Shown here piece after piece: positions 9,923-49,066 of a stretch of DNA of 49,066 bases. The position numbers and the translations under genes were made by a program. How positions within the stretch are numbered: the stretch's first letter is position 1; each line of letters starts with the position of its first letter. The stretch comes from a virus. The stretch lies in IMG/VR virus record IMGVR_UViG_3300025151_000057, positions 1-49,066 of that record; one strand, written 5' to 3'. Under the pieces are notes generated by a model. The model was given only the letters and a program-made list of their open reading frames with translations, was not told the DNA's origin and ran no database searches.

Positions 9923-9927
9923 TAGAC

Positions 9928-11903: not shown

Positions 11904-11970
11904 CGGTTCGTGACCGTTTCTCCAGAGCCTCCCTTGCAGTTCCTTCCATCTCCAAGGGAGGCTCACTTTT
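11902..11970 (+). terminator. Tandem hairpins after the head genes
   Basis: AACGGT/ACCGTT (11902-11907 and 11913-11918) overlaps the stop codon and is followed by a perfect 12-bp stem, GAGCCTCCCTTG/CAAGGGAGGCTC (11925-11936 and 11953-11964), then ACTTTT. The T-run is short, so it may only reduce read-through or protect the upstream 3' end, giving high head-gene and lower tail-gene levels. Confidence 0.7.
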
Positions 11971-11982
11971 AGGAAATTAAAT

Positions 11983-13008: not shown

Positions 13009-13013
13009 AAACT

Positions 13014-13361: not shown

Positions 13362-13370
13362 GGAAAGAAG

Positions 13371-13733
13371 ATGAGCGGACACAGAGCAGCACATGATTTG
13401 GCAAAGGCTCCATTGCAACTTTTAGATGGTGGCGATGCGAGTATCATTGGCATTGATCGTTTCGGCGGGATTGTTGAATTGGAAACCGCAGGAACAGAAA
13501 CTCGAACACTTGCCGATCCTGTTGGAAGTGGCTTGCGAGCGACTGTTCGCATGCGAGTTGACAACGGCAACTGTACGGTAACAGCCGCAAACGGATTGAA
13601 TGTGGCAGGAAACACTACTGCTGTTTTTGCAGACGTAGGCGACTTGCTTGACATGATCAGCGTTGAGACTGCCACAGCTGGCGTTTATCGCTGGGAAATT
13701 TTAGTAAATACTGGATCTGTAGCACTATCTTAA
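13371..13733 (+). CDS. Small beta-rich virion protein
   Basis: A 120-residue protein, ATG 13371 after AAGGAAAGAAG. It has alternating hydrophobic strands and ends in a pattern (CTVTAANGLNVAGNTTAVF) common in small phage structural beta domains. It sits between connector and tail-stabilisation genes and is probably in the virion. No specific role can be assigned. Confidence 0.75.
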   Translation: MSGHRAAHDLAKAPLQLLDGGDASIIGIDRFGGIVELETAGTETRTLADPVGSGLRATVRMRVDNGNCTVTAANGLNVAGNTTAVFADVGDLLDMISVETATAGVYRWEILVNTGSVALS

Positions 13734-13743
13734 GGATGTCAAA

Positions 13744-22680: not shown

Positions 22681-24599
22681 ATGGACAAGATGGAGATAGT
22701 TTTCGTCGAAGGCAGGTAAGGCATAATTCTGCTCAAGGCTTTCGCAATGGTGCGCCTTACGACTCGCGAAGCGGCAACGACTCTCCACTTTGGCCGACCG
22801 TAAAAATCAAGATAGGTATTACGGATGAAGAAATTGAGCCTGACGGCCACGGCGTAGTTACGGTATGGCGAAATCCGATAAATGGCTCGGAAGCTGAGAA
22901 AACAAGCGAAAAAATTAAAGTCTACTTGGATTGGATGCATGGCGACCAGAGCATACCTGAAAACACAGAAGTTCTGTGCATTGAGTTTCCAGATGAAAAC
23001 CTTTGGCGAGTCTTTATTGACAACGACCCTAAAGGCGTGGTGTTAGAGCGTTGTAGCGACAAAAAAACAATTGTCGCTTACGACATAAAAATAAATGACT
23101 TCTACGGAAATCTGTCTGACAATATTGGAGCGGTTGTACGGCTGCGAGACTCAGCGTTTTTTGAAACTGATTGCTGGACGGTATTGCGGGAGTCTGATTG
23201 CGTACCAGAGATTTGTCCAGATGTTTGTTTAGTTACATCAGATTGCAAAACTTGCTACGGCTGCTACAGGCTGCGTCAGTGCGACGATCCGTCAATTGAA
23301 ATCATTACAGAATCTAACAATCTTTGCATCGAACACGACAAAGGGGGCGGTTTCCCGTTTGATGTGATTATCGACTTTGGTGCTGTGGTAATCCTTGACG
23401 ATGGGCTTTGCTACACAGTAGAAGAAGCTGAAAATTGCATTGGATCGCAATCAGTTACAGTCATAGGAGTCGCTGAAAATTGCAATGCTTGTCATGAATG
23501 CTGGAGGCTTGAACTGTGTCCTCCTGATCCAAATTTCCCTCAATCGTTTCCAGATGAAACAATTTACATTTACAAAGACGGTCACGACTTGTCAGAGGGT
23601 GACGTAGTAAAGTATGGGGGTAAGTGCTACAAAGTTTATGACAATGGAAGTTGTCCCGAATCGGCTTTTCGGGTTACTACCACCTTAGAAAAATACGATG
23701 ACTGTGATGAGTGTTCAGGGTCAGGCTGTTATGAATTTTTATCGTGTTCAGAAGGTCAGTACGACAGCATAATAGTTCGGTCGGCAACAATGCTTGATTT
23801 GGACAATGACGAATCGGATCGAGACGGGTATGTAAACGTAGACCTAGACCAATACATTGGCAGAGTTGTGCAGACTGCTGACGGTAAATGCTACACAGTT
23901 CAGAAAATATACGAGGGCTGTGATAGTGCGTTGGATGTTGTGATTGTTGAGGAATATGAGGAATGCGAATGCTGTGGCGTTTACCTGATGGAAGGTTGCT
24001 ACGGGGCAGAAGACATCTACACCTATGATGACTTTTGTTATTACATGCAAAAAGGTGGAGGGCAACTGTTTAAGAGGGCTGAGGATGGCCTTTGCTACAT
24101 TCTTCGAGAACTGGATCAAACAGGAAAGATCGGCGTTCCATTTACAATTGAACTTGAATGGGGGCAGGGTGCGACTTGCGATTATTGCGAAGAACCTACC
24201 TATACGTTAACGCCAAACTGCCCTGATTGTGACACAATTACCGGCGGTGCTAGTGAATGCGACTCAGAGATTGGTACTCCAGTTGCAGGAAAACCAACTG
24301 CAACGACCGAATGCACAAACGAAAATTTGCAAAACTATGTCGGTCAGTACATCAAAATTGACGGGGTGTGTTATCACGTTTCGCCTGCCGATCCGTCCTG
24401 TGATGTAACCTTGCCAGCACCGTTGCAATTTACTGGAGGGTTTTCGGATTGCGATGCTTGCCAGAAAACTTGCCTTTGGGTAGTCACTGATGTTTACATC
24501 AAATACAACCAAATCCGTAAAACGAGAAAACAAATTATTGTTGATGCAATTTGTAGAGAAGACGATGAACTAATTATTGACATTGAGGATTGCCCATAA
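22665..24599 (+). CDS. Cysteine-rich repeat protein, probable virion surface protein
   Basis: A 644-residue protein with an unusually high Cys content after residue 160. The first 150 residues have few Cys and form a domain with RVFIDNDPKGVVLERC near its end. The remainder holds five to six repeats of about 70 residues: a CxxCYxLxxC entry, an acidic beta segment, GxCYxV, a further Cys, then DCDxC leading to the next unit. Such regular cysteines suggest disulfide-pinned beta repeats or metal-binding knuckles on the outside of the particle. I associate repeats of this type with planctomycete proteins, from memory. It starts 16 bases inside the preceding gene and ends one base into the next. Confidence 0.75.
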   Translation: MAIRVNGQDGDSFRRRQVRHNSAQGFRNGAPYDSRSGNDSPLWPTVKIKIGITDEEIEPDGHGVVTVWRNPINGSEAEKTSEKIKVYLDWMHGDQSIPENTEVLCIEFPDENLWRVFIDNDPKGVVLERCSDKKTIVAYDIKINDFYGNLSDNIGAVVRLRDSAFFETDCWTVLRESDCVPEICPDVCLVTSDCKTCYGCYRLRQCDDPSIEIITESNNLCIEHDKGGGFPFDVIIDFGAVVILDDGLCYTVEEAENCIGSQSVTVIGVAENCNACHECWRLELCPPDPNFPQSFPDETIYIYKDGHDLSEGDVVKYGGKCYKVYDNGSCPESAFRVTTTLEKYDDCDECSGSGCYEFLSCSEGQYDSIIVRSATMLDLDNDESDRDGYVNVDLDQYIGRVVQTADGKCYTVQKIYEGCDSALDVVIVEEYEECECCGVYLMEGCYGAEDIYTYDDFCYYMQKGGGQLFKRAEDGLCYILRELDQTGKIGVPFTIELEWGQGATCDYCEEPTYTLTPNCPDCDTITGGASECDSEIGTPVAGKPTATTECTNENLQNYVGQYIKIDGVCYHVSPADPSCDVTLPAPLQFTGGFSDCDACQKTCLWVVTDVYIKYNQIRKTRKQIIVDAICREDDELIIDIEDCP

Positions 24600-25547: not shown

Positions 25548-27731
25548 ATGCCGATCACAATATCTTATGGAAATCCAGCCTTGGTAGGGGCAGCTTCGTT
25601 TGCGATAGGCAGAGAAAAGGGAAAGATGAAAGCGGGCGCAAAGGCCGCAGACATGGCCCAGGGAATGCTAGATCGGCGTGACAAGAAACGAGATGACGAG
25701 CGTGACAGGTTTGACAGGCTTAACAAAGAAGCAGCTGACAGGAACCAGAGGTTTGCTACAGAACAGGGCCGGCTGGCTGATAGTGAAGCAGATCGTCAGT
25801 CTCGGCAGAATATTGCAACTGCCAAACTTAATCAGGATATGCAGAATAAAGCAGATCGCTTTAAGCAATCGCAAAACGAAGCTGCTCAAAAAGAACTTGA
25901 TGATTGGGGCAAAAGAGATCGTAAAAGAAGAGAGGATTGGGCCAAGAAAAACCAAGGCGGTTCAGATGTTTTTGGACAACCTTCTGGAGAATACCAGACT
26001 CCTGATTGGGACCCTCGTCCTTCAGGTCCTAGCTTTGACGGCATGGGTGGCGGTGGATACGGCGGCATGGGTGGCGGTAATGATTTTCCACTTCCAAAGG
26101 GTGCGGTGGAAATGGGGCCTGCAATGGGGCCTGGAATGGACCGTGGAATATACTATGAGAATTTGCGTCCTCGTACTCCTCAAGAACGAATAACGCAAGG
26201 TCGTCCAGTTCCTGAAGGGCCAATACCTTTAGAAGCTCCAGCTGGCGACCAGCCTCCACAGCAGTACGGCCCGATTGGCGGTGGTGAGTGGGAAGTTGAA
26301 ATGGGGCTTACTCCAGAGCAACAGCAACGTCTACAGCAGCTGAGAACATATAAAGGTCAGATAACCTCTAACCCCACATTAGATTACGACCAAAAAGTGG
26401 AAGCATTAAATAATGCCGACATAATGATAGAAGAAGCAAGTGTTCCTCAAGTCGTTCCTAAGCAGCAGAACAGGCCGAAAACAGCTTGGGAGCAAGAAGT
26501 GTTTCAAACTCCACAAGGTCCAGTCACGATAGGTCCTGATGGAATGCCTACGTTTATGCAGGGTGCTAGAGAAACTCCTGAAGAGAAGAAACAGCAAGAA
26601 GCACAAGCACTTGGTTTAGCTTTTGCCAATCAAATGAACCCAGATGGCACTCCGCGATACAAGCCGGAGGAAATCCCATTTGCCGTTGCTTCTGCAATGG
26701 ACGGCAGTCCAGGCGAAAGGTTGAAAATGCCAACTCCGTTTGAAAAAGCACATCCTGATTACACAACAAACCAGATGGGTGCGTACATTTCTCCAGTCAT
26801 GGCCGAGGCTGATGCTGTTCGAGACATGCAAGGACTTGATCCTGAAAAGTACAACGTTTCGATCAATAAAAGCGGTGACGGTCGCGCCCAGTTGACTGTG
26901 CATGAGAAAAAACAAAAGCCACTTCCTGACATGGAAAAAGAAGAAAAGCCAAAGGTTGAATCAAGGGCTTTGTCTTGGGAGGATTACAGCAGTAATGAGG
27001 CTAGAAGGCTCGACGCTCAGAACGCTTTAGGTGGCGGTGAAAATATTACTCAAGATCAAATAGACGAATATCTTGAGGATCAGTACGACAAATATGTAGA
27101 AAGGGCAGAGCAAAGAGCTGCTGCCCGAGCTGGTGGCGGTAGCAGTGCCAGTGTTCCTTCTGCGGGATTGCCGGACTACGACACGCTAGAGTATCCAGAT
27201 GGTACGCCAGTTGTCTCGTTTGCTGACAAAACAAAAGGAATGACAGGGTCAGCACCACCGGAACAAAAAAATCCAGTGTTGGATAGTGCAATAAAAGCGA
27301 CTGGAGGTGGACCTGCACCTGTGCCGGAAGCACCTGCACCTGCACCGGAAGTGCCGCCAACTGCCCCTGATCAGGCACAGCCGCCACTAAATGCTATGGG
27401 GATGGAGTCCGCTCCTGCACCTGCACAGGCTCCAGCGGCTGCACCAGGTGCGGCCCCAAGAGTCCCTGGTCCGTTTGAAAAACCAAAACCTAGAATGTCA
27501 GGAAAAGAAGCTCTCGGGCCAACATCTTCAGCTAAAGAGAGGGACGATTATGACAGAGAAACAAACCAGAGAATGCTTGATTACTATCACAACAATCTTG
27601 AGTTGACCGATGATATGACCCCCGAGCAGGTAAATGCTAAGCTTGATAGTTTGAGCCAAGAAGAGCTTACGGAGTACATGACTGCACTCGGGTTAATCAT
27701 AGAAATTGACAACAAATACAACAGCAAGTAA
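25548..27731 (+). CDS. Internal virion protein candidate, low-complexity with helical N-terminus
   Basis: A 727-residue protein. Residues 1-150 are charged and helical (DRQSRQNIATAKLNQDMQNK), followed by Gly/Met-rich repeats (GGGYGGMGGGND), a Pro/Gln-rich middle with GPVTIGPDGMPTF, and a Pro/Ala tract (PAPVPEAPAPAPEVPP) near residue 600. The C-terminal 80 residues are helical again. Long, flexible, mixed-composition proteins just before a giant late gene are often ejection or inner-core proteins in podoviruses. No catalytic motif was found; the assignment rests on position and composition. Confidence 0.7.
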   Translation: MPITISYGNPALVGAASFAIGREKGKMKAGAKAADMAQGMLDRRDKKRDDERDRFDRLNKEAADRNQRFATEQGRLADSEADRQSRQNIATAKLNQDMQNKADRFKQSQNEAAQKELDDWGKRDRKRREDWAKKNQGGSDVFGQPSGEYQTPDWDPRPSGPSFDGMGGGGYGGMGGGNDFPLPKGAVEMGPAMGPGMDRGIYYENLRPRTPQERITQGRPVPEGPIPLEAPAGDQPPQQYGPIGGGEWEVEMGLTPEQQQRLQQLRTYKGQITSNPTLDYDQKVEALNNADIMIEEASVPQVVPKQQNRPKTAWEQEVFQTPQGPVTIGPDGMPTFMQGARETPEEKKQQEAQALGLAFANQMNPDGTPRYKPEEIPFAVASAMDGSPGERLKMPTPFEKAHPDYTTNQMGAYISPVMAEADAVRDMQGLDPEKYNVSINKSGDGRAQLTVHEKKQKPLPDMEKEEKPKVESRALSWEDYSSNEARRLDAQNALGGGENITQDQIDEYLEDQYDKYVERAEQRAAARAGGGSSASVPSAGLPDYDTLEYPDGTPVVSFADKTKGMTGSAPPEQKNPVLDSAIKATGGGPAPVPEAPAPAPEVPPTAPDQAQPPLNAMGMESAPAPAQAPAAAPGAAPRVPGPFEKPKPRMSGKEALGPTSSAKERDDYDRETNQRMLDYYHNNLELTDDMTPEQVNAKLDSLSQEELTEYMTALGLIIEIDNKYNSK

Positions 27732-27736: not shown

Positions 27737-30700
27737 ATGCAAGATCAGCAAAATAACCAGCAAAACGCTATGCAACAAAGGCTAATGCAGGCAAGGGATC
27801 TGTATAAGCAAAAGACCGGCGTGGACTTTGAAAGCAAGCCTGAAGACGCTGGGCCAGCCGTGGCCGTTGCTGAGCCACCTGTGGTAGAAAAGCAGGCTCC
27901 CAAACCCGAAGCAATTGTTCCGCAGCAACAGGCTCCGCAGCAACAGGCTCCGCAGCAACAAATGAGTGCTACGGATTTGTTTCAGCAAAGAGCGATCGAA
28001 AGGTGGAACAAGAAGGTTGATGCTGAGGAGAGCTTTAAGCTTGAGTCAAAGTTTTACAGGAAAGACAGAAAAGAAAAGCCCGAGCAGGAAATGCCGAAAG
28101 AGGGTGAATACTTTCTTGATGCAGACGGCCAGCTTCGACGAAGAGAGTCTGGCAGGTTTTACCCAACCCCAGAACAGGAAAAGGGCCGAACTTTACAAGA
28201 CAAAAAAGAAGAGGAAATTAGAAAAAGAAACATGGAAATAGGCAACTTTAGTAAAGTTGTTCCAGATTCTTACATAAGCCCTGACACAGAAGCCGAAAGA
28301 ACTAGGAGGTTAGATAAAGAGTTAAAAGAATACTGGGCCAAGAAAAAGGGAACCGCCCCGCTAGAAACTCCTGAAATTCCAGAGGGAATGTACATGGGCT
28401 TGGACGGCCTGGGCCATTACTACAATACCGACACAAGAGTTTCAAAGGAAGAGTTCAAAAAAGCCAACCCTGATGTAGATATTGACAGGATACAAGGCGA
28501 ATACTTTGCTGGAATTATGCAAGAAGCAAAGGAAGATCAGCTTAAGTTCACCGGCAAAGGAAGTGCAATTTCGGGTGACGAGCAAAGCTGGGGAGGGTAT
28601 CTTGGCTCAAAGACTCCTTGGATTGGATCGGCAATGGAGATTGGGGCGTTGTTGGCTCTCAAGCCTCACTTCGATGCAATCGAGGACGGCACAGCCACAA
28701 GAAGAGATTACGTTGTTGCTGGTAGATACCTAGCAGAGCTGGAAAAAGAAGAAGGAAAAGGTTGGTGGCGTGGCGTTGGGGACATCGTTGCCGACATGCC
28801 GGCATTCATGATTGAATTTGCAGCTGCCGGAGGCGGTGTTGCGACTACAACTGCCAAGAAGGGATTGAAGACTGCGATTGAGTCGAGTGCGAAGATGACC
28901 GCCAAGGAGCTTTTAAAAGCTGGTGGTAAGGTAGCAGCAAAAGGTGCAGCCAAAATTGGCAAAGTTACCCTTAAGCAGCCGCACAGGATAGCAGAAGCTG
29001 CCGTTCGTGAATCAATGCCAGAGCCGACATACGACGAAGCAACAGGCAGGATTACTTTTGAGGGTGGCTCTGATAACTGGGCAAGAAATGTTGTAAGAGG
29101 AACGCTTGATACTGGAATCGAGACAGCTTCGGAAATGTCTGGTGGATACACGGCTGGACTGATCGGCAAGGCCATGAGCGGGGCCGTTAAGCCAGTAAAG
29201 AAGGTACTAGACAAGGTTGCACCAAAAACTATCAAAGGTGCGCCTAAGCCTGCAAGGCTGGACAAGAAGATGTGGACGCATGAAATAGCTGCGTTTCAAA
29301 TGAAAGCTCGGGTCGCCTTGCAGAAGAAGATCAACAAGGTTGCCAACCCAAAAGTCAGGGAAGGAATACAAAAGGTTTTCAATGCTGGTGGTTACAACGG
29401 TATCATCGAGGAATACGGTGAGGAGCGATTAGCAGAGCTGCTAAGAAAAGCAACGGCGTTGTCCGAGTACACTGATTTAGATACAGATTTGGGACAGACT
29501 GGCGAGTTTTTCCAAGGTGCATTTGATGTTGCAACCGCAGGCAATTGGCAAAAGCTCGGCGACTTTGGCTATCACTCTGCACAGCAACTGGCTGCGTTTT
29601 CGGTTTTCCCAGCTGGAAGTATGGCAGCGGAAGGTTTGTCTGCTCTGGATCGTGCGCCAAGCGGAAGGGAATGGAGAAAGCTTGTTCTAGGCACTGACAC
29701 AGATGGCTATTTCCCAAGTCGAAAAGTAAGAAAACAGCAGTGGGAGGCAACAAAGAAAGCTCAAGAGGCCATGAGGGCCGGATCTGCTCCTATTTCGAGG
29801 GTTCCAGTAAGTGCTAAGATTCCTGGGCTTGTCGATACACGGCCTGAAGCAATTGAAGACAAGCCTGATGTAATTGATCACGGAAAGGATGTTCCTACTA
29901 GGCAGTTGTATGATGCGGAAGGGAAGCCATACACGCCAAAAGCGGTAGTGAAAGAACGAGCTGAAAAGGCAAGGAAAGCTGCACAGCAAAAACAAACAGA
30001 GTCTCGGGCAGCGGAAGGTACGGTCAGGCTTTCTCCCGAGGCCGCAGCCGTTAAAAGGCGGCAAGAGGTAGAAGAATACAAAAAGAGCAAGGTCGCCAAG
30101 CAAGCAGCAGCAGAGCGAGAAAAACTGAGAGCTGAAAAGAAAGATCGGCTTGATAAACTGCCAGCTGAGGACAAACAGTGGATCAAGGACACAGAGGATC
30201 TTATTAAGTCAAATCCAATCTTTGAAGGTTCGGAAGTTGACATTGACATCGTTGATGGCAAAAAAACGGCCACGGTTACGCGGGAAGATGACCGGTCCGT
30301 TGTGTTCCACTATGACAAAGCCAGAACAGACAGGATGATCTGGAACCCTAAGCCAATGGCTGGTGCGCCAAAAGGGCAAATTCATTTAACGTCAGATGCA
30401 AGTCATACCGACATTAACAAGCAAGCAATTCCGTGGTTAGTTGCTGAAGGAGTTGTGTCGCAAGAAGAGATTCAAGCTTACCCTAACCTAGCCCAAGATT
30501 ATGCTAAGTGGGCTAACAAAAGGTCGCTTAAAAAGGCCAAGATGGAAAAGGCCACTCCGCTCCAAAAGGTATTCCAAAAAATATACGACTTTTTAGAGCC
30601 AATCTTTACACTGCAAAGCAGTCTTTTCAAAGACTTGGAAAAGCGTCGATCAAAAAGTTTAATGACAGACGAAATGCAGGAAGCAATCCATGTGGCACAG

Positions 30701-33700
30701 GATGCGTTTCTTGCCAAATCTTTACGAGGAAAAACGCCACCCTCAATGCCTGGCTCAAAGAAACCGCCAAAGCAACCACAGACCTACAGGAGTGGAAAAC
30801 CAAGACCTGTTTGGAACCCACGGGAACCAGCAACAAAGGCAGAGCAAAAAGTTGCTGATTTTATGAAAGCTCGCGGTAAAAAGTTTGCGTTTCTTGACAC
30901 CCCAAGAGAAGCAACTGAGCCAGCTGGTGTCCACATGACTGACTCGGGGTATGTCTTCTTGTTTCAAGGACTTGCAGATGAGGTAAATCGGGATTTCTTG
31001 TCTGGCAAAAACTTGTTGTGGAACGTGCTAGGCCATGAAGTTGCTCACCAGACAAAACTTGACGCGGCAATGCCTTACAATTCCAAGTTTTACAGAGCAA
31101 GAAGAAAGCAATGGCTAAAGTTAAATTCAAAACTTGATGCTTACAGAGAATTTGCTGAGAACGCTGGAGAGCTTGATCCAAGTATTCCTCGGAAAGACTG
31201 GTCATACGAAGAACAGCAGATTGGAAAAGAAGTCCAAGCCACCCTCGCTGGCGAATTTATGAGCAATCCGTTTTTCAGGAAGATGCTTAAACAGAAAGAG
31301 CCTGGGGTCTACGAAAAGCTCAAGAAAAAGATCTTGCAATCGGTCAACAGCTGGGGGCCTAAAGATCAGGCTAAAGAAATGGTGCTTGCAGAGTTCCGCA
31401 AAACCAAGGGCGAGAAAAAGCCGGTTGAGAAAAAGCCTCTTACAGCTGAACAGATGCAAATTATCTCAAAGGCATTTAAAGACAAAGAAAAGAACGACAA
31501 ACTTAATCCAAAACCAACTGGTAAGTTTGCAGAAAAAAATCCTGATTTAATCAAAAAGCATTTTAGGACTGTTGACGATTTCAACGAAGCTGCCTTTGAC
31601 TACATGATGATGCTTGATGCTGATCAAATGAAAAGGGAAATGGAAAGGGAAGAGGGTAAGAAAAAATCAGCTGGGTTAAAAGAAAAGGTCCTTCAAGGTC
31701 AAAAGACTTTAAAAGATCAATCGCTAAAGGAGTACTACCAAAACCATCCACACAGGAAGCTGATCCCAACCAGAGAAGAAGATGTGGTCGAGGTTTGTTT
31801 GATTGGCTGTGCCGCCAAGAAGTTTAAAGGCTGGCACAAAGGCATTGACTTGTACGACTCAAGGCCATTCAAGCAAAACGTGGAATATGCCGAGGGAACC
31901 GGAATGCCTTGGGGTATACTCTCGGCAAAATTTGGGTTCATGGACCCATACCGAGAATACCATGACTATGACGCTGAGCTTGACACTCAAGAAAAAAGAA
32001 ATGCTTTTGGTCCGAAAGCTGTTGAGCGTGTGTACGAACACCTTAAGAACCTTGGGGTTGACGTTGAGAATAGGCAGATCAAGTTTACGATTACAGCTCC
32101 AAAAAATTACGCAAAGGCGTTTGAAGATTCCAGAGACTTTACGCACGAAGTTGAAATCCCGATGCAGGGGATGGGGCAGGGCAAGCGAAACCAGTGGCTA
32201 ACTGAGCAGATTAAAGAGCAAAAAGAGCGAAAATCTTTGCTAGAAAAAGATCCAGTTGACTCGCAAATGTTAGCCGATAATCTTGCAGCGATTGAAAGAG
32301 AAGAAGCCAGGCGGAAGGCAGAAGCAAAAAAAAGGCAGATGCCGGATTATTTTACAAAGGATGATAATGACAATAACCAATCGTTTATTGAAATGCTTGA
32401 TCAAATTTCAAGGGAAGATCCCAAGCAATACAATAAAGCAATTCGCGAACCTCTTCAGGACTTTATGCTTGGCATCAAGACTCCTGAAAATTCCGAAGTA
32501 GCAAAACTTGAAGGAAGCCAGTTAGACTCTCTTGCGCAGTCTTTAACAAACCCTGTCCAGGAATGGCTTTTTGATTGGAATCAAGAAAATCTTCCTATGC
32601 TTCAACTGGACACTGTAGAAAAATTGGCAAAGGCGTTAGCTGTTGAGCTTAACAAAACTCAGACTAAACAAATTCCATTTAGTGATTACGTGCCTGCCAA
32701 GCGTAAAGATGAAGTTTACGAACTGTTGCTAACTGACTTTATATCTGGCTCCGGATTGCCTATCCCTCTGATGCGAGCAGTTAGAGCCGTGGCCCCTAAA
32801 ATTACCGATGACGCTAATTTTAAAAATTATCACGACGCGATCATTGGGAGAAAGGGCGGGCTTTACAAAGATAAGTTTAAGCCTACGGATCCGGTTGCTA
32901 AGGATGTTGTTGGGCAGCTTGTAGACAAAGGCGACTACTTGGAAATTCCAGAAGGTTTGACCTTAGATTCGACTGCCAAATACAGTGACGAACAAACTGC
33001 TTTGTATGACAAGGCCATAATTGCGATTAAATTGGCAGACACTGCCTTAAAAGAAGCTAATAAATCAGGCTTGTCTTTTGCTGAGGAAGCAGGGGAAGCC
33101 GCTCAAAATTACCTCGACGACATAGAGATCAAAAACAAGGAAAATAAAAAGCTTGGCTTGCCAGCTGTTAATGATCCTTACGAGGGTGATTGGTCCTATC
33201 TTGCCGAAACAATTGAACAGTTTTTGTATAAAAATTCTGGGCTTGAAGATAAAGGTGACTACATTGAGATTCCCTTTGGTTTTGATTTCTTAAGACCGAC
33301 AACTCTTAACCATATAACACCAGACATCGAGTTGCAGGCAGGAGAAGCGGCTGATCTTGCGGAGAAATTGTATGTTCAGCATGCTAACGAAATGCCAATT
33401 GAAAATATTGCCGACATCGCTGACGAAGAGGTGATGGCTGATATTGGGGTTCTTTTAGATACGCTTTACATGGAGGAATTTAATGAAACTCCTTGGAGCG
33501 AAGATGCCGATCTTGAAGATTTTGATAGAGACCCGTGGGATTGGAATGTTGAAGACCGAGATGCTGTTGCAGATAAGATTGAACTGACTGTTTTTAATTA
33601 CTACAAAAAGCTTGTAAAGGCTAAGCAAGATCCAACAGAATTAGAAAGTTACGAAGTTCCAGAAGAAGAGCAAGTAGAAGAGGAGCAGGAAGAAGAGCAG

Positions 33701-36700
33701 GTAGAACGAGAGCAGGGAGAAGAGCCTCAGATCTATACTGACGAAGACGGGAATATAAAGTATGACAGATTAAGCGACACCGCTTTGTATAGAGGGATTA
33801 CGAACGGAGGCAGGCTAGACAATCAAGAGTCAAGAAAGGAATTTGCTAAAAGAGGTGTAAACTACGGCGGTGTCCAGGTTTATATAGGTTATGACGAATT
33901 TCCTATAGGGGCTGATAAAAAGGGTGGATATGGAAAATGGATAGACTCCAAGCAAAAAGTTGGGGATGCCAAGGATTCGTTAAGCAAGGCAATTAAGAAA
34001 TACGCTTCTCAGCTGGATAAGCTAATTGTTAAAGAAGCAGAAAAACTTGGCGTTCCAAAGGGCCGAGGAAAGCTTGGTTTGTCTAAGGCGAAAAAATACT
34101 TGGAGATGTTGAAAAAAGCGGAGGAGACGGCTGAAAAAAATCCTAAGCTTGACAAGCTAAGAAATGAGATTGAACAGGCTGAGCAAGAGCTGGAAAAAGC
34201 TGCCGGTGCGGACGAAAAAGCAGAGTATGAATTTTATTCTGGAATAGACACAGCAGATGTTGATTGGAAAAAGGAGCGGCCTGACATAGATTTTATTGGA
34301 ACAGAGTTTCTTGAAGGCAAAAAGCTGGTCCGGCTTAAAGGTCTTACAAAAGGCTTTCACATGGACTACCACAGCCACAAAATGTTTTATGCAGACAAGG
34401 TAAAGCTTGGAAAGTTTGATAAGAAAAAACTAAAATACGAAGTCATGGATTTGCAAGGTAATCCAATTGGGTTTTTAAGCCGCTGGGAAATTGCCAATGA
34501 TTATATGACAGAAGAGCAAGCAGAGGAGCAACGCATCCTTGAGGCCGATCATTTGCAGGCCACAATTGAGTCGCAGAAGCTCAAAGATTCTAAAAAGCCT
34601 AAAAAGAAACCTGTTAAGAAAGTTACCCTTAAACAAGCAAGGGAAAGCATTAGAAAAGAAGATCCGGCTTCCAGCTGGTTTGCTGGTCTGAGGATTGAAG
34701 CAAAGAAGGTCAAGGCAAAGGCTGTAAAAGACATTGAGTTTAGCGAAGAAAGATTCGGAAGAATTCCAAAATCAACACTTGAATACTTTGACGGCAAAGT
34801 GCAGGCTTGGCAATACTCGGGAATAAAAGTAGGTGACACTCGCAGTCCAAAGTGGGCTTCAATCAATGCTCACTATGAAGAAGATAAAGTTAAAAAAGGC
34901 GTTGAGTACACCCAAATCAAGACTAAAAAGCATTTAATGTACATTCCGGATGCGGAGGGTTCTGAAAGCAAGAAAGAAGAGAGAAAAGCGTTTTACGTCG
35001 GAACTTTTGATAATCTTTTGGATGCAAAACATTTTGCCGTAATGGTGGAAAGGTTAGGTGTAGTCACACACAAAGCTTTTGTTGGAGAAATGTCAGATGA
35101 CATGAAGGCAGAGCAGTCAAAAATGCAAGCCGTTTATGAGACGTTTGTTCAAATGAGGACAAACAAAAACTTTGACACCGACATTTTAGAAAAAGCGTTT
35201 GTCAGGGAAATCGACACCAAGCGGCTGGAAAGTATCAGTCCATACATGCCCGATCCAGAGATCGAGGCAGACATATACCTAGATGCTATTGATCTTGGTG
35301 ATCAGGGCCTGAGACACCGGATGAGCAAGGTTGGCCTGGCTAAAGTTAAAGAGCTTGCCAATATTGCTCCTGAGTTTAGCTTTAATCCAGTTTTTGTCGT
35401 AAACCAAGACTACGATCTTGAGTTTCAGGGATTTACAAATTTCAAGTTTAGGCTGGATCTGTTTAATCTTGACGTTGATGAATTAAAGGTTGGGCAGACG
35501 GTCGGGATCAATCTTCCTTCTATTGGAGTGAAGAAGATAACAAACCAGTCTGTCGCAGAAGAAAAGATAATTAAACTCCTTAAAGGCTTTGCTGCATTTA
35601 GTGATTCTGAAGCTAGAGAAATAATATCAAAAATTCCGTTTGACTCTAAAAAGCTGCAAAATGAAATATTGGATCGACAAGGAAAGCTTGAACAAGCATC
35701 TGTGGATTACAACAGAATGCAAGCAAGAGAAAAGGTTCGCATCGCAAAAGAGCAGCAGCTGCCAGACGACTCGCCGGATATTCGGTCGACTTATCAGATA
35801 AGGCCACCTTCAAAAGGGTTAAAAGCGAAGCCGCAGGGAAGTCCACCTCGCGTTCCACAGCCCGGATCTAAAGGTCTTAAGCCACAAGGCCCGTTAAGCA
35901 ACGCTGCCATCAAGCAGCTCTTTGGTTTGCAGGGGCCAGAGCTTTACAAGATTGCAAAGATATTGATGGCTGGAGGCCCTTTAGATGTCAAGAAGCTGCG
36001 TGGCGCACACGGAATGTTCCGTTATGAGGTCGGCACGACAAACATGGATATTTTGATTAACCCAACCACAGCTGAAAACGAGCAAGCATTGCTTCAGACT
36101 CTGGCTCATGAAATTGGTCATCTAATTGATTACGTTCCCGAGCTGCTTGCACTGTCTAAGAAAAACAATAAAGGCAATCTGCTTGCAAGGCTCGAAGTAC
36201 TAAACAACATGTTAAGTAAGCAGCAAGGGTTTTTGCCGTACATGGTTGAAAAAGACAGGAGGAAAATTAAAAGACAAGCCGAGAAGCAGGCTGGCCCAGG
36301 CGCAAGTCGAGAAACCATTCAGCGTATTTACGAGGACATGCTTATAGCACAGGGCATACTTCCTCTTACAAGAATCAGGCGAGAGCTAATAGAAGTCACA
36401 AAGGCTTGGAGTGGTGACTACACGGGGCTTCCTAAATGGTACGTCAATTACCGAGAAAGTCCGGCAGAGCTGTACGCAGAAGCATTGTCGATGTTTTTGA
36501 ATAGCCCAGGCGATCTCGAAAGCATGGCTCCGACTTTTTACAACGCTCTCATAGACTATATGAACCGGAATCCCGAGTTTTTAGATGCTTATTCAGATGT
36601 TCAGCTGATGATGAATGGCAGTGACAAAGATTTATCGGCTCAAAGAACCGCAGATCTGAGAAAAATGTTCCGCGATGCTGGCGCACACATTCATGCTTTA

Positions 36701-39700
36701 GGAGAAGAAAAGAAAAAGACTGTAAAAGACAGTGTTCGTGGTATGGTTTCGTATTTAAGCCAATACGGGCTGGATAAGCATGCCGCTGTCACCCTGAAAA
36801 TGGGCCGCAGAAGCCCTGTAGGAGTTAATCAGGCAGACAAAGATGCAGCAAGGTTTGCCTTGGATGAGCTGTTCACCATGAACTCAGACAACAATAAATT
36901 TGTTCGTGAGGTTAAAGATACAGTCGTTGATCCATTGAAGAAGTATTACATGGAAAACGGCACTAGAGAGATGGGGAAAATGACAGAAGAAGAGGCAGGG
37001 TATCACGCACAAGATGACCTTGGATTCTTTCTGTTCAGGCAAAGAGTTGTCAATGGAGATCGACAAGACAAGGCAAACCCCTTTGCAACTACCCCGACAT
37101 CGGCAAAGCAAGACTTAGTAAACATGGAAGCTAGGCTTGGCACAGATGCTTACGATGAGCTTCAAAAGCTTGCTTTAATGTTTCACGATCTTGTTTTCGA
37201 GGCGAGCGAAAATGCTGTGGCAGAGGGCGTGTATAGCCAGCAAGCAATGGACGAGATCATTGAACCAAACAGGGATTACTATGCCGCGTTTAGGGTTACA
37301 AAGTACATAGAAGACCCAATGTACATCCCAGCTGGAATAATGAAGCAAGTTGGTACGTTTGATGGCGTTGAAAACGTGTTTCATTCAACCATGCTTAAAG
37401 TTGTCTCCTTGAATCGTTTGACAAAGCTTAATAAGGCTAAAAACAGAGTCAGAGTTTTCTTGCAGAACAATTTTCCAGACGAAATAACAAAGGTCCCGAC
37501 TTATTACGTCGGGCCAGGCAAACCAAGGGAGCCAAAGGGGAAACCGAAAGCTGGTTACGAACGAATAGTTGAGCTTGTCGATGGCAAGCCTGTTTGGTGG
37601 GAAGTTGATAAGTCTATTGCAAAGTCGTTTGAAACGTCAGATATAGGCGGTCTTGATACAGTAGTCGGAGTCATGAACTCATGGACCTACAAGGCTTTTC
37701 ACCCGTTGTTTGTGACGTACAACCCTGGCTTTATTATTAAAAACCCAGTAAAAGACCTTCGCCGAACGTATGTCAACCTTGGTTCAATTTACAAGGTCAG
37801 CATGCTGGAATTGTTCGCCGAGCAGATCAAAGCTGTGCCAGCTGCGTATCGTCGCACGAAGGGCATCCTTGATCCAGTTGTAAAAGACATGCTGGACTCT
37901 GCGGCAATTGATATTCCGTTTGTGGGAAGAGATGCTGGCAAGCGGATGTTGCAAAGTGAGGAAAACAGCCTAGTTGCCTACGACAACATGCTTAAAAATG
38001 CAGGGCTGATGGAGGTACGCAAAGGGCGGCTGGAAAGCATTCCGTACCTTGGAAGAGTTTTCAGGGCAATTGAAGCAGCTGGAGAAATTACTGAAACAGC
38101 CACCAAAATCGCTGGTTGGCGGGTAATGGAAAAACGAAATGTTCCAATTCAGGAAAGAGCGTTTAACGTGCGAGCTTACGTGGGAACACCTGATTATAAG
38201 AAATCGGGTCTTTTCACCTCGGTTACTAACGGTGTTTTTATGTATTCACGGGTCAAGTGGAACGGCCTGCAAGCCGACATGAACCTTGCTACGCACTCGG
38301 ACACTGCTTCGGGGTGGTGGTGGAGACAACTCATTACAACGATCATGCCAACCTCGTTTACTAAGCTTACAGCCTATGGCGGGGGATCGGCGTTAATGTA
38401 CTTCATGCTGGGGCTTGATCCAGATGACGAAGAGGATATGGACAGCTTTTTAGGTCAGACCGTTTTGTGGTTCCATGAAAACTACAGGCGATACGGTTCG
38501 TACTGGACGCGGGCCTATGATTCAATACCGCTTGGACTTGACGAAGAATCTAAGGCTTTGTTTCTTTCAATTCCTCGCGACGAAACAAGCAAGCTGGTTG
38601 CAACGGCTTACGACCATTTCACAGATTTAATAATGCTGGGCCTTGGGCAGGACATTAAATCGGGAAAAACCACAGGGCAAGTTGCCGGTGATCTTTTTGC
38701 AGGGGTAACTTGGGATGCAGCGGCTCCTTCGTTGTCGCCCACACTTTTAATGTTAGCAAAAAATGGTCAATATTTGCTCGACAAGCAGCCGTATGATGAT
38801 TTTAGAGACAGGTATATTGTTCCTGATCTCCATTGGCAGGCAGGCGGGCATCATGCCGCACTTAAAATGCTTCAATGGAACATACAGCAATTTGGTGCGC
38901 CTGGACAAGCAGTTGGGTATCTCATGGACCTGGCTGAAGGAGATGCGGCTGAAACTACAATTTCCGAAGCTGCTTTAGAGGCGGCTGGTGCGTTGACTGG
39001 CATTGGATCTTTAATTCGACGTACTGATACGGGCTTAAAGGCTGAAGAATACGCAAGGATTGAAGTGCAGCAAAGGCATGACGCTCAGTTTAGATTGAGT
39101 CTAGGTTATAAAGCCTATAGCTTGGCAACTGAGCTTAATACGCTCAACCGAAAGGAAAAGTCAACAAGTCTTGGGTTAAACGAAAAAGACAGAAAGCGAA
39201 AATACGACCTAGCTTTGTATGGAAACTATGTTTACGAGCCAGCTAGAATGGCTATCAGAGAGGCTGATCTTGCAGCAGACACACAAAAAGGAAAATCGTT
39301 ACGCAAAAAACTGCTAAATACAGCCGAGTTAGCAGACAAAGGCCAGCTGCCTACGCTGGCAAAGTTTGATGCAGACAAAAAGGATGACATCACATGGGGT
39401 TTGTCTAATGCTGCGTACAAAGGAGCAACAACTCCCCCAGAAAGAAAAAACTATACAACCGATGGGGGCTTTGAAAAGTCTGTTGCAGAATACAACGAGA
39501 ACCAAGATGCTATGATCGAAAGAATGAAGCATTTCTTTCCAACGGAAAAAGAAGCGATAGATGCGTTAATGTATCATTTCCGGTTTGATAGGGTCGACGA
39601 CAACGGCAAACCGACCAGAAATAAGTACCAAATTAAGTATTTAGAAGCATACGACAAACGCAGAAAACAAATAATTCGGATTTATCGCACTCCAAACAAA

Positions 39701-39718
39701 GGACTTAAGCAAAAGTAG
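27737..39718 (+). CDS. Giant polyvalent internal virion protein (3,993 residues)
   Basis: One uninterrupted frame of 11,982 bases, about 24% of the genome. Order: Gln/Pro-rich start with QQQAP repeats (residues 60-75); an Ala/Gly-rich hydrophobic region (about 342-500) that may enter membranes; HEVAHQ at 1100, a zinc-protease-like motif; a DUF6884-like domain (about 1352-1475, VCLIGCAAKKFKGW); Glu/Gln-rich acidic linker (about 1975-1995); coiled coils (about 2090-2160); HEIGH at 2791 with a possible third ligand in PAELYAEA near 2910; a motif FVTYNPGFIIKNPVKDLRR near 3324 that I read as an LPD38-type region; helical C-terminus. This domain salad fits phage 'polyvalent' proteins, which are packaged and injected with DNA. 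It starts five bases after the previous stop. Confidence 0.8.
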   Translation: MQDQQNNQQNAMQQRLMQARDLYKQKTGVDFESKPEDAGPAVAVAEPPVVEKQAPKPEAIVPQQQAPQQQAPQQQMSATDLFQQRAIERWNKKVDAEESFKLESKFYRKDRKEKPEQEMPKEGEYFLDADGQLRRRESGRFYPTPEQEKGRTLQDKKEEEIRKRNMEIGNFSKVVPDSYISPDTEAERTRRLDKELKEYWAKKKGTAPLETPEIPEGMYMGLDGLGHYYNTDTRVSKEEFKKANPDVDIDRIQGEYFAGIMQEAKEDQLKFTGKGSAISGDEQSWGGYLGSKTPWIGSAMEIGALLALKPHFDAIEDGTATRRDYVVAGRYLAELEKEEGKGWWRGVGDIVADMPAFMIEFAAAGGGVATTTAKKGLKTAIESSAKMTAKELLKAGGKVAAKGAAKIGKVTLKQPHRIAEAAVRESMPEPTYDEATGRITFEGGSDNWARNVVRGTLDTGIETASEMSGGYTAGLIGKAMSGAVKPVKKVLDKVAPKTIKGAPKPARLDKKMWTHEIAAFQMKARVALQKKINKVANPKVREGIQKVFNAGGYNGIIEEYGEERLAELLRKATALSEYTDLDTDLGQTGEFFQGAFDVATAGNWQKLGDFGYHSAQQLAAFSVFPAGSMAAEGLSALDRAPSGREWRKLVLGTDTDGYFPSRKVRKQQWEATKKAQEAMRAGSAPISRVPVSAKIPGLVDTRPEAIEDKPDVIDHGKDVPTRQLYDAEGKPYTPKAVVKERAEKARKAAQQKQTESRAAEGTVRLSPEAAAVKRRQEVEEYKKSKVAKQAAAEREKLRAEKKDRLDKLPAEDKQWIKDTEDLIKSNPIFEGSEVDIDIVDGKKTATVTREDDRSVVFHYDKARTDRMIWNPKPMAGAPKGQIHLTSDASHTDINKQAIPWLVAEGVVSQEEIQAYPNLAQDYAKWANKRSLKKAKMEKATPLQKVFQKIYDFLEPIFTLQSSLFKDLEKRRSKSLMTDEMQEAIHVAQDAFLAKSLRGKTPPSMPGSKKPPKQPQTYRSGKPRPVWNPREPATKAEQKVADFMKARGKKFAFLDTPREATEPAGVHMTDSGYVFLFQGLADEVNRDFLSGKNLLWNVLGHEVAHQTKLDAAMPYNSKFYRARRKQWLKLNSKLDAYREFAENAGELDPSIPRKDWSYEEQQIGKEVQATLAGEFMSNPFFRKMLKQKEPGVYEKLKKKILQSVNSWGPKDQAKEMVLAEFRKTKGEKKPVEKKPLTAEQMQIISKAFKDKEKNDKLNPKPTGKFAEKNPDLIKKHFRTVDDFNEAAFDYMMMLDADQMKREMEREEGKKKSAGLKEKVLQGQKTLKDQSLKEYYQNHPHRKLIPTREEDVVEVCLIGCAAKKFKGWHKGIDLYDSRPFKQNVEYAEGTGMPWGILSAKFGFMDPYREYHDYDAELDTQEKRNAFGPKAVERVYEHLKNLGVDVENRQIKFTITAPKNYAKAFEDSRDFTHEVEIPMQGMGQGKRNQWLTEQIKEQKERKSLLEKDPVDSQMLADNLAAIEREEARRKAEAKKRQMPDYFTKDDNDNNQSFIEMLDQISREDPKQYNKAIREPLQDFMLGIKTPENSEVAKLEGSQLDSLAQSLTNPVQEWLFDWNQENLPMLQLDTVEKLAKALAVELNKTQTKQIPFSDYVPAKRKDEVYELLLTDFISGSGLPIPLMRAVRAVAPKITDDANFKNYHDAIIGRKGGLYKDKFKPTDPVAKDVVGQLVDKGDYLEIPEGLTLDSTAKYSDEQTALYDKAIIAIKLADTALKEANKSGLSFAEEAGEAAQNYLDDIEIKNKENKKLGLPAVNDPYEGDWSYLAETIEQFLYKNSGLEDKGDYIEIPFGFDFLRPTTLNHITPDIELQAGEAADLAEKLYVQHANEMPIENIADIADEEVMADIGVLLDTLYMEEFNETPWSEDADLEDFDRDPWDWNVEDRDAVADKIELTVFNYYKKLVKAKQDPTELESYEVPEEEQVEEEQEEEQVEREQGEEPQIYTDEDGNIKYDRLSDTALYRGITNGGRLDNQESRKEFAKRGVNYGGVQVYIGYDEFPIGADKKGGYGKWIDSKQKVGDAKDSLSKAIKKYASQLDKLIVKEAEKLGVPKGRGKLGLSKAKKYLEMLKKAEETAEKNPKLDKLRNEIEQAEQELEKAAGADEKAEYEFYSGIDTADVDWKKERPDIDFIGTEFLEGKKLVRLKGLTKGFHMDYHSHKMFYADKVKLGKFDKKKLKYEVMDLQGNPIGFLSRWEIANDYMTEEQAEEQRILEADHLQATIESQKLKDSKKPKKKPVKKVTLKQARESIRKEDPASSWFAGLRIEAKKVKAKAVKDIEFSEERFGRIPKSTLEYFDGKVQAWQYSGIKVGDTRSPKWASINAHYEEDKVKKGVEYTQIKTKKHLMYIPDAEGSESKKEERKAFYVGTFDNLLDAKHFAVMVERLGVVTHKAFVGEMSDDMKAEQSKMQAVYETFVQMRTNKNFDTDILEKAFVREIDTKRLESISPYMPDPEIEADIYLDAIDLGDQGLRHRMSKVGLAKVKELANIAPEFSFNPVFVVNQDYDLEFQGFTNFKFRLDLFNLDVDELKVGQTVGINLPSIGVKKITNQSVAEEKIIKLLKGFAAFSDSEAREIISKIPFDSKKLQNEILDRQGKLEQASVDYNRMQAREKVRIAKEQQLPDDSPDIRSTYQIRPPSKGLKAKPQGSPPRVPQPGSKGLKPQGPLSNAAIKQLFGLQGPELYKIAKILMAGGPLDVKKLRGAHGMFRYEVGTTNMDILINPTTAENEQALLQTLAHEIGHLIDYVPELLALSKKNNKGNLLARLEVLNNMLSKQQGFLPYMVEKDRRKIKRQAEKQAGPGASRETIQRIYEDMLIAQGILPLTRIRRELIEVTKAWSGDYTGLPKWYVNYRESPAELYAEALSMFLNSPGDLESMAPTFYNALIDYMNRNPEFLDAYSDVQLMMNGSDKDLSAQRTADLRKMFRDAGAHIHALGEEKKKTVKDSVRGMVSYLSQYGLDKHAAVTLKMGRRSPVGVNQADKDAARFALDELFTMNSDNNKFVREVKDTVVDPLKKYYMENGTREMGKMTEEEAGYHAQDDLGFFLFRQRVVNGDRQDKANPFATTPTSAKQDLVNMEARLGTDAYDELQKLALMFHDLVFEASENAVAEGVYSQQAMDEIIEPNRDYYAAFRVTKYIEDPMYIPAGIMKQVGTFDGVENVFHSTMLKVVSLNRLTKLNKAKNRVRVFLQNNFPDEITKVPTYYVGPGKPREPKGKPKAGYERIVELVDGKPVWWEVDKSIAKSFETSDIGGLDTVVGVMNSWTYKAFHPLFVTYNPGFIIKNPVKDLRRTYVNLGSIYKVSMLELFAEQIKAVPAAYRRTKGILDPVVKDMLDSAAIDIPFVGRDAGKRMLQSEENSLVAYDNMLKNAGLMEVRKGRLESIPYLGRVFRAIEAAGEITETATKIAGWRVMEKRNVPIQERAFNVRAYVGTPDYKKSGLFTSVTNGVFMYSRVKWNGLQADMNLATHSDTASGWWWRQLITTIMPTSFTKLTAYGGGSALMYFMLGLDPDDEEDMDSFLGQTVLWFHENYRRYGSYWTRAYDSIPLGLDEESKALFLSIPRDETSKLVATAYDHFTDLIMLGLGQDIKSGKTTGQVAGDLFAGVTWDAAAPSLSPTLLMLAKNGQYLLDKQPYDDFRDRYIVPDLHWQAGGHHAALKMLQWNIQQFGAPGQAVGYLMDLAEGDAAETTISEAALEAAGALTGIGSLIRRTDTGLKAEEYARIEVQQRHDAQFRLSLGYKAYSLATELNTLNRKEKSTSLGLNEKDRKRKYDLALYGNYVYEPARMAIREADLAADTQKGKSLRKKLLNTAELADKGQLPTLAKFDADKKDDITWGLSNAAYKGATTPPERKNYTTDGGFEKSVAEYNENQDAMIERMKHFFPTEKEAIDALMYHFRFDRVDDNGKPTRNKYQIKYLEAYDKRRKQIIRIYRTPNKGLKQK
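27920..27961 (+). repeat. 15-bp in-frame tandem repeat (QQQAP)
   Basis: The unit CCGCAGCAACAGGCT occurs twice (27920-27934, 27935-27949) and partly a third time to 27961, coding for a Gln/Ala/Pro spacer. Being a multiple of three, copy-number changes would alter linker length without breaking the frame of the giant gene. Confidence 0.85.
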
Positions 39719-39825: not shown

Positions 39826-39996
39826 ATGCTTGTTTTATCAAGACGGGTGCTTGAAGAGATTGTTATCAATTCAAACATCAAAGTCACTGTTGTTGAGATA
39901 AACGGAAATCAAGTCCGTATCGGAGTCGAGGCTCCAAGCAATGTCTCAATCTTACGAGGTGAGCTTTTAAATCACGGGGGCAACTCCGATGACTAA
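39826..39996 (+). CDS. csrA: CsrA translational regulator
   Basis: A 56-residue protein matching CsrA along its length: MLVLSRRV at the start, the core GNQVRIGVEAP and the ILRGEL segment that carries the RNA-contacting arginine. CsrA dimers bind GGA in mRNA leaders and block or stabilise translation. The ATG at 39826 follows TTTTTGGAGGAACGA, a strong ribosome site that itself contains GGA motifs, so self-control is possible. A longer frame from 39730 adds an N-terminus CsrA proteins lack. Its last eight bases overlap the nuclease gene. A phage copy could redirect host or phage mRNA use. Confidence 0.95.
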   Translation: MLVLSRRVLEEIVINSNIKVTVVEINGNQVRIGVEAPSNVSILRGELLNHGGNSDD

Positions 39997-41065
39997 AGAA
40001 AGGCTTACTCACAGTCGGATGCAGTCTTTTAAGCTGTGCCGCAAAAAGCACTACTACGAATACGAAGTAGGCATAAGGAAAGAAACCGACGCGAAGGCGT
40101 TGCGAATGGGCCATGCTGGTCATGAAGGCTTGGATCAGTTGAAAAAGACCAACCTGATTGATGTGGCTTGCCAAGCCGTTAAAGACGAGTACAAAAATTG
40201 TCCACCGGAAATATCTCAGTATGACTGGGAGATTGAAGAACAGACAGTTTTAACTCTTCTCGAAATGTACAATTGGTACTGGCACTATTGGTCTTTGAAT
40301 GAGCATGAGCCGTTTAATGTAATTGTTTCAGAGGCATCATTTGACTTTCCGCTTCGCAACCCAAAAACAGGGTACGCGGCAAAAAACTTTGATAGAGCTG
40401 GCAAAATTGACGGCATTATCAAAAAGAACGGAAGGAAGCTTGTCCTGGAACATAAGTTTCTGGGCGAGGACATTAGCCATGGTGGCAGCTTTTTTGAAAG
40501 GCTTCGCTTGGATCAGCAATGCACAAACTACGTTGATGCAGCCAACAGCCTATTCGACAATGTTGATGGCGTGTTGTACGATCTGATTCGCAAGCCGACG
40601 ATTCAGCCAACCGCAATTCCTGTGCTGGACGAAGACGGCAAAAAGATTGTCTTAGATTCAAGCGGAGAGCGTGTTTACAACAAGGACGGCAAAACCTATC
40701 GCCAGTCAGCAGACAAAAAGCTTGGCTACGAGATTGTCACTCGGGATATGACCGTTGAAGAGTGGGGCCTGAAGCTTGCAGTTGACATTGAAAAACGGCC
40801 CGACTTTTATTTCCAGCGTCATGAAATAGCTCGCTTGGAAAGCGACATACAGGAGTTTCGTGAGGAAGTCTGGCAAATACAGCTGGATATTAGAAGTCAC
40901 CAGCGGTCTGGGAACTGGTACAAGACGGTTAACAAAGGCAGCTGCACGTACTGCCCCTTTACCTCGTTGTGCTTAAATAGGTCACAGATCGACAAAAACA
41001 CTCAGCCCTACGATTACCCTGAAGGGTTTGTCAAGCTGGAAGACGTGCATCCGGAGTTGGGCTAA
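39989..41065 (+). CDS. PD-(D/E)XK nuclease with Cys cluster (RecB/Cas4-type)
   Basis: A 358-residue nuclease. The catalytic core has Asp141 in GKIDGI and the ExK pair at Glu154-Lys156 in VLEHKF. Four cysteines (17, 319, 322, 328; the last three in CTYCPFTSLC) are laid out as in Cas4/AddB-type enzymes, where they hold an iron-sulfur cluster. It probably trims double-strand ends to make single-stranded tails, which the Sak4-like ATPase and SSB-like protein encoded downstream would use. The start overlaps csrA by eight bases and the stop overlaps the next gene by one base. Confidence 0.85.
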   Translation: MTKERLTHSRMQSFKLCRKKHYYEYEVGIRKETDAKALRMGHAGHEGLDQLKKTNLIDVACQAVKDEYKNCPPEISQYDWEIEEQTVLTLLEMYNWYWHYWSLNEHEPFNVIVSEASFDFPLRNPKTGYAAKNFDRAGKIDGIIKKNGRKLVLEHKFLGEDISHGGSFFERLRLDQQCTNYVDAANSLFDNVDGVLYDLIRKPTIQPTAIPVLDEDGKKIVLDSSGERVYNKDGKTYRQSADKKLGYEIVTRDMTVEEWGLKLAVDIEKRPDFYFQRHEIARLESDIQEFREEVWQIQLDIRSHQRSGNWYKTVNKGSCTYCPFTSLCLNRSQIDKNTQPYDYPEGFVKLEDVHPELG

Positions 41066-48967: not shown

Positions 48968-49066
48968 CGCTCGGGATCCCGAGGACCACGGGCCAGCTGT
49001 GCGTGCGTGTGTGTGTGGTCGATCGGTGGTGGATCCGTGTGTGTGTGCGTGGTGTGTGTGTGCGTG
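48968..49066. repeat. Terminal direct repeat, right copy
   Basis: Identical to bases 1-99 over its full length. It should be removed from one end when the circle is closed. Confidence 0.95.

Follow-up and report, generated by a model that had tools for sequence, protein, structure and literature searches.

The giant gene that takes up about a quarter of the phage genome analysed here encodes, with a probability that we put at roughly 0.78, a phage-type polyvalent protein that is capped by an LPD38-type module and carries exchangeable cargo on a delivery chassis. By chassis we mean the last ~1,300 residues of the protein, made up of the second of two zincin-like domains and the LPD38-type module; the first ~2,690 residues are referred to as cargo. 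A polyvalent protein had been proposed in the initial annotation of this DNA, and the interpretation is supported by a zincin, an LPD38-type module and a DUF6884 domain, together with the position of the gene at the end of the head and tail gene block; the refuting outcome that had been named, the absence of both a metalloprotease fold and LPD-type domains from domain searches, did not occur. Sequence comparison places the protein on a divergent branch of a family to which giant proteins of cultured phages also belong. Proteins of this kind have been known since 2017, cultured relatives exist, and neither size nor plan is unique; a record size can be rejected, since BcepIL02 gp70 and JC1 gp69 are larger. 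This particular combination of domains was not found in print in the literature on DUF6884, LPD38 and phage polyvalent or large polyvalent proteins.

The giant gene and its setting

The window, that is, the whole stretch of 49,066 bases under study, corresponds to the entire virus record IMGVR_UViG_3300025151_000057. It carries an exact terminal direct repeat of 99 bases and is therefore probably a complete, circularly mapped genome. Its landmarks are the following:

1-99 and 48968-49066: exact terminal direct repeat, 99 bases
4793-6811, + strand: terminase large subunit (PHROG 2, E 2.2e-11)
6815-8581, + strand: probable portal protein (Pfam SU10_portal, E 0.0052, below the cut-off of that family; syntenic in relatives)
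9928-10983, + strand: probable major capsid protein, a virion-block gene (assigned from position alone; 92.9% identity to the sister phage G004, IMGVR_UViG_3300006920_000090)
13744-15306, + strand: head-closure-like protein (PHROG 578, E 1.8e-7)
27737-39718, + strand: giant open reading frame, 3,993 amino acids (ATG start, no internal stop, ortholog of 3,974 amino acids)
39989-41065, + strand: exonuclease, the first sizeable gene past the giant frame (PHROG 1218, E 1.4e-18)

Both the single frame and its share of the genome had been described correctly beforehand: 3,993 codons run from ATG to stop on the + strand at 27737-39718 without an internal stop, and they account for 24.4% of the 49,066 bases. 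The mass of the encoded protein, roughly estimated per residue, is ~446 kDa. The ortholog lies in IMGVR_UViG_3300000117_000172 (G001), a 28,225-base contig of another phage, and is 85-89% identical by segment. The giant gene is under purifying selection as one protein, with a whole-gene dN/dS of 0.233 against this ortholog (Nei-Gojobori, 3,972 codons); an artefactual or chance frame is ruled out by the 12-kb open frame, the ortholog in the same frame and this dN/dS of 0.23. When the gene was divided into 12 parts, the lowest values were those of zincin 1 (0.061), DUF6884 (0.083) and zincin 2 (0.092), followed by residues 800-1040 (0.103) and 2960-3580 (0.123). Independently of any library, dN/dS thereby singles out the three catalytic-type domains that the initial annotation had named. 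Regions without a family match are looser (0.43 for residues 1491-2090 and 0.37 for residues 2160-2690), yet still constrained.

The giant gene is positioned at the end of the head and tail (structural) gene block and is the last large gene ahead of replication and recombination genes on the same strand, the late, virion-gene setting of a portal-terminase phage. The probable major capsid gene had no family match in Pfam and PHROG scans of the window. Two large genes lie directly upstream of the giant frame, at 22665-24599 (644 amino acids) and 25548-27731 (727 amino acids); neither has a family match above cut-off, and both are candidates for further internal virion proteins.

Domains of the giant protein

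Several biochemically disparate domains are found in the one chain, namely a DUF6884 domain, two HExxH domains and the LPD38-type module. All of the following parts are on the + strand:

28616-29455, + strand: Gly/Ala-rich N-terminal region, residues 294-573 (weakly similar to the N-terminal part of the relative from Planctomycetes)
30854-31336, + strand: zincin-like domain 1, residues 1040-1200 (HEVAH at residues 1100-1104, nucleotides 31034-31048)
31793-32206, + strand: DUF6884 (YaaA-like), residues 1353-1490 (Pfam E 1.7e-22; CAAKK and LSAKFG motifs)
32207-35806, + strand: cargo region without a family match, residues 1491-2690
35834-36616, + strand: zincin-like domain 2, residues 2700-2960 (HEIGHLID at residues 2791-2798, nucleotides 36107-36130)
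36755-38476, + strand: conserved helical module preceding the LPD38-like core, residues 3007-3580 (hhalign E 1e-16)
38477-38869, + strand: LPD38-like core, residues 3581-3711 (hhalign E 3.1e-4)

The two HExxH motifs reported previously are located at exactly residues 1100 and 2791, where 0.056 would be expected from composition. Neither domain exceeds any Pfam cut-off, and the peptidase matches at both sites are sub-threshold: zincin 1 matches Pfam M48 at E 0.0089 with 16.3 bits, below the cut-off of 20.3, and the SprT-like match reaches 13.1 bits against 25.6. In zincin 2, the H, E, H and D residues and a downstream E are invariant in eight of eight aligned relatives, as are the HE(I/L)GHLxD motif and a downstream ELYA in all eight aligned rows. 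This pattern, in which HExxH is followed three residues on by an Asp and, on the next helix, by a Glu, matches the phage-type zincin of polyvalent proteins, for which the Asp is described in section 8 of Iyer et al., 2017 (PMC5512222); Glu 2911 (nucleotides 36467-36469) is the likely third ligand. The C-terminal half of zincin 2 can be aligned with the sequences that follow the HExxH of Thalassomonas phage BA3_0002 and Vibrio phage vB_ValP_FGH (hhalign E 1.1e-6; best of five shuffles 0.0033).

An AlphaFold model of the chassis (residues 2700-3880, eight sequences) was poor, with a mean pLDDT of 53 and a pTM of 0.28. Foldseek comparison of this model with solved structures gave no match reaching 0.001. 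In a second look at solved structures, 45 of 50 among the matches listed fell on model residues 28-275 and were mostly zincin folds (lethal factor, PPEP-1, IrrE and selecase, Z 5.0-6.7); bacterial regulator chains also match the model, with Z up to 7.3, and the tool warns that values of Z <8 may reflect a common arrangement, so that the support for a zincin fold is middling. Against BFVD, 30 of 278 Foldseek matches of the same poor model had E<=0.001 (best 2.0e-19), and nine of these 30 are labelled 'large polyvalent protein associated domain'.

The DUF6884-like domain of the initial annotation is a clear member of Pfam DUF6884 (PF21818; residues 1353-1490), scoring 80.5 bits where the cut-off is 30 (E 1.7e-22), and it also matches PHROG 5935 (E 1.9e-12). 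Its CAAKK and LSAKFG stretches correspond to the family motifs CxxxK and LSAxxG as given in PMC11701544; the same paper likens DUF6884 to YaaA, notes a positively charged cleft and suspects that the family takes part in DNA repair. The domain resembles a stand-alone protein of Fusobacterium phage phiFN37 (BLASTP E 1.3e-10), whose DUF6884-type gene is directly flanked by an annotated queuine tRNA-ribosyltransferase gene on one side and a queosine precursor transporter gene on the other (OR492271.1, 4191-6018). DpdA and YaaA are reportedly both encoded in the genome of HRTV-29, an archaeal virus (PMC8651126). These contexts suggest, as a lead only, that DUF6884 may be linked to deazaguanine base modification; three other phages with a DUF6884-type match whose surroundings were examined have no queuine- or queosine-type neighbours annotated. 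The domain probably acts on DNA or RNA bases. DUF6884 in this way gains a context (a giant virion-type protein and a queuine tRNA-ribosyltransferase neighbour) that points to base modification or repair.

Membrane-like regions, which had been claimed as well, were not borne out: the top 19-residue hydrophobic window averages just 1.37 on the Kyte-Doolittle scale (residue 350). Residues 1491-2690 gave no Pfam or PHROG match above noise, comparison of the cargo with phage proteins gave no match beyond DUF6884, and an AlphaFold model of residues 1494-2689 (two sequences; mean pLDDT 31.5) contained nothing usable. Sequence searches of solved structures with the chassis, DUF6884 or a piece of the sister protein P0002 returned nothing convincing. 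No single-subunit RNA polymerase domain was matched at E<=1 in Pfam, PHROGs and NCBIfam. Likewise, the Pfam scan at E<=1 found no methylase and SNF2-type helicase pair in the giant protein, whereas the same scan does pick up a helicase and a weak methylase in BcepIL02 and in the Planctomycetes relative; ART and lysozyme domains were not found by Pfam either. The N-terminal region of residues 294-573 aligned with the Planctomycetes relative at hhalign E 1.6e-4 over 265 columns (one reversed and four shuffled controls at least 0.031), a likeness that we hold as weak for a region chosen by eye before the comparison; its likeness to BA3 and FGH is suggestive only.

The C-terminal chassis and proposed delivery of the giant protein

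Homology with relatives begins sharply at about residue 2697. The LPD38-like motif of the initial annotation stood in part: there is no direct match to Pfam LPD38 (PF18857), and profile-profile comparison supports the relationship (E 9.5e-19). LPD38 was not listed by a Pfam hmmscan of the giant protein at E<=1, and a direct PF18857 search found no candidate in the window record and none above cut-off in eight records, the best match being a weak one (E 0.019) in the Planctomycetes relative. We therefore call the module LPD38-related and not a member of Pfam LPD38. The comparison started from a true LPD38 protein of G079, one of two matches in 199 genomes; relatives of it were found in 51 phage records, seven of which were examined. 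Against the LPD38 proteins of cultured podoviruses, the chassis aligned through residues 3007-3761 of the giant protein, with hhalign E 9.5e-19 across 641 columns; the controls, one reversed and ten with shuffled columns, lay between E 0.24 and 0.93. Homology extends to both parts of the module: residues 3007-3580 matched the corresponding regions of eight LPD38 proteins at E 1e-16 (five shuffled controls at least 0.11), and the LPD38-like core matched the PF18857 part of eight proteins at E 3.1e-4 over 114 columns (five shuffled controls at least 0.15). BcepIL02 gp70 (4,667 amino acids) taken by itself gave E 1.6e-9 (five shuffles at least 0.16). A Pfam LPD38 match is present in the cultured relatives BA3, PTXU04, HTVC034P, Palmer and BcepIL02.

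Four described systems come closest to the giant protein. The polyvalent proteins of Iyer et al., 2017 (PMC5512222) share with it many domains per chain, a zincin hub, the phage-type HExxH with its Asp and the late-gene setting, and LPD38 is stated there to be restricted to phage-type polyvalent proteins. DUF6884 is not named in the sections of that survey drawn on here, and by Pfam the giant protein is without the RNA polymerase, methylase-helicase pair, ART and lysozyme. The DarB-like giants of Lessieviruses are alike in size (BcepIL02 gp70, 4,667 amino acids; JC1 gp69, 4,515 amino acids, 22.1% of its genome with LPD38 at 4195-4401; PMC9144972), in being the last gene of the morphogenesis module and in a homologous C-terminal module, as tested on BcepIL02; they differ in having SLT/lytic transglycosylase, methylase-helicase and LPD3, none of which is found in the window protein, whereas the latter has DUF6884 and two zincins. 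BA3_0002 (2,631 amino acids) and the protein of vB_ValP_FGH (2,634 amino acids) share the succession of a zincin and a C-terminal LPD38 module, the HExxH with Asp three residues on and an alignable downstream zincin helix, but each has one HExxH only and no DUF6884 match, and BA3 has a methyltransferase domain ahead of the zincin. The N4 virion RNA polymerase is likewise of giant size with a zincin in its C-terminal region, which according to section 5 of PMC5512222 is needed for encapsidation of a protein that is injected; in contrast, no RNA polymerase domain was detected in the window protein.

Most likely, the virion contains the giant protein and injects it together with the DNA. Packaging is supported by the precedent of the homologue JC1 gp69, which is virion-associated, with 51 unique peptides reported from CsCl-purified virions (PMC9144972); the four fingerprinted gel bands of PTXU04, for which only some bands were excised, did not include its LPD38 protein gp25 (PMC6563267), a result that counts against packaging. 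As we picture it, the chassis, with zincin 2 and its long helical LPD38-type module, would put the protein into the virion and carry it out with the DNA, and the first ~2,690 residues would be active in the host cell just after entry. This cargo would consist of zincin 1, the DUF6884 domain, probably acting on DNA or RNA bases, and the parts without a family match. Zincin 2 would probably divide the chain into working pieces, either while the particle is assembled or once the protein has entered the cell, and exchange of the whole giant gene between phages would alter the cargo set.

Proteolysis could also occur in another way, with zincin 2 (and zincin 1) cutting a polyprotein during assembly into virion and non-virion proteins, so that no chain of 3,993 residues would be present in the particle. 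The strong constraint on both zincins fits this proposal, as does P1 DdrB, described as cleaved before packaging (PMC5512222, section 8). The same section, however, has the N4 virion RNA polymerase, with its zincin region, packaged whole, and no cleavage site was identified in the giant protein. Moreover, five of the seven named LPD38 phage proteins (HTVC034P, Palmer, PTXU04, 1.232.O and phiARM81mr) are without HExxH, two (BA3 and FGH) have one, and the G079 piece has none; the zincin is therefore an addition to the chassis and not part of it everywhere, and its self-cleavage cannot be general for the chassis. We regard a polyprotein as unlikely, and note that it overlaps with the packaged polyvalent protein, from which it differs only in the timing of the cut.

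Less likely still, and in our estimate quite improbable, is a role confined to structure or ejection, in which an internal virion protein of great length would have an N-terminal scaffold and no host-acting effector. T7 gp16, an internal virion protein, would be the model. HTVC034P gp44 (1,229 amino acids), a smaller LPD38 protein with little beyond the chassis, is encoded near an internal virion protein B-like gene and directly before the tail fibre, which would suit such a function, and so would the fast evolution of the parts without a family match (dN/dS 0.37-0.43). Yet constraint on DUF6884 and zincin 1 is among the strongest in the protein, both keep their catalytic-type motifs, and the N-terminal content of the sister phage is quite different, which is unexpected for a scaffold in the same particle (the probable capsid genes are 93% identical). 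Finally, a protein that is synthesized after infection to take over the cell, and that is left out of the particle, would fit a last large gene ahead of same-strand replication and recombination genes, but is very improbable given that LPD38-capped relatives are found at the end of structural blocks and that one of them is present in virions.

Relatives and probable exchange of the giant gene

Relatives of the giant protein were sought in nine records, eight with a related terminase plus the contig of the ortholog, most of them fragments that end before the giant gene would begin; two matched residues 2001-3993 and one matched residues 1-2000. A search with the C-terminal alignment found six viral loci (129 pattern matches) and two loci on MAG contigs (525 pattern matches). 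The chassis alignment has eight rows, from viral contigs and the two MAG contigs; G011, with a chassis nearly that of G004, was omitted. In these relatives the chassis sits below quite different N-terminal parts. The Planctomycetes MAG contig MHYB01000054.1 contains, at 4914-16580, a 3,889-codon frame with the same C-terminal chassis, ahead of which lie a helicase domain and a weak methylase match; the locus is recognisable as phage-derived from a neighbouring head-closure homologue. In IMGVR_UViG_3300017613_001069, the whole chassis-bearing frame has only 2,216 codons. The sister protein P0002 (9955-19998 of its contig) has its own cargo, in which a zincin of M91 type, with a Pfam match that exceeds the family cut-off (E 5.4e-7), precedes the shared one. 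Three further impressions by eye from P0002 remained unproven: a ParB domain (Pfam ParB_N only E 0.077), an ART domain (no Pfam match in that region) and a queuine-transferase (TGT) domain (hhalign to phiFN37, E 0.28).

The giant frame of the sister phage G004 is open for at least 3,347 codons and is cut short at its 5' end by the border of the contig. BLASTP aligned it with the window protein only from residue 2697 (33% over 1,388 columns, E 0.0), with no significant similarity upstream of this position. The two phages are 85.6% identical in the terminase, 76.9% in the probable portal and 92.9% in the probable capsid protein, against 35.7% in the giant chassis; the far more distant G010 and G013 have terminases of 35.5% and 32.0% and chassis of 44.5% and 42.1% identity to the window. 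Nor is the chassis fast-evolving in comparison with the ortholog (dN/dS 0.12 over residues 2960-3580). With the terminase at 86% and the probable capsid protein at 93% identity, the chassis at 35.7% and no detectable similarity before it, the gene was therefore probably replaced whole, and these distances suggest that it came from elsewhere in either the window or the G004 lineage. In the chassis tree, the window and G004 as neighbours were not rejected (p-AU 0.316), so that gene replacement rests on distances and not on topology. The five-taxon trees covered neither G001, whose contig has no terminase, nor G014 and G015, whose chassis-type genes were not compared.

We raise a broader proposal tentatively, and would sooner expect it to fail than to hold: the zincin and the LPD38-type module may form a general docking-and-ejection chassis on which whole effector sets are swapped by gene replacement, and the usual pair of anti-restriction methylase and helicase may in this lineage have given way to a DUF6884 domain modifying or repairing the bases of incoming DNA (or of host RNA) and to new effector families in residues 1491-2690. 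If the C-terminal module were such a portable chassis, its boundary (~residue 2697 here) would mark where cargo ends and machinery starts for a large group of giant phage proteins that mostly bear the label 'hypothetical protein', and cargo discovery would therefore become systematic, by reading upstream of the chassis. It would also raise the question whether a foreign domain could enter the virion on the chassis alone.

A probable second exchanged gene of the window, at 17352-20168, encodes a 938-amino-acid protein with a head-fibre PHROG match at its start. It is 52% identical over 172 amino acids in G004 and 44% over 209 amino acids in G002, while its structural neighbours in these two phages are mostly far more alike.
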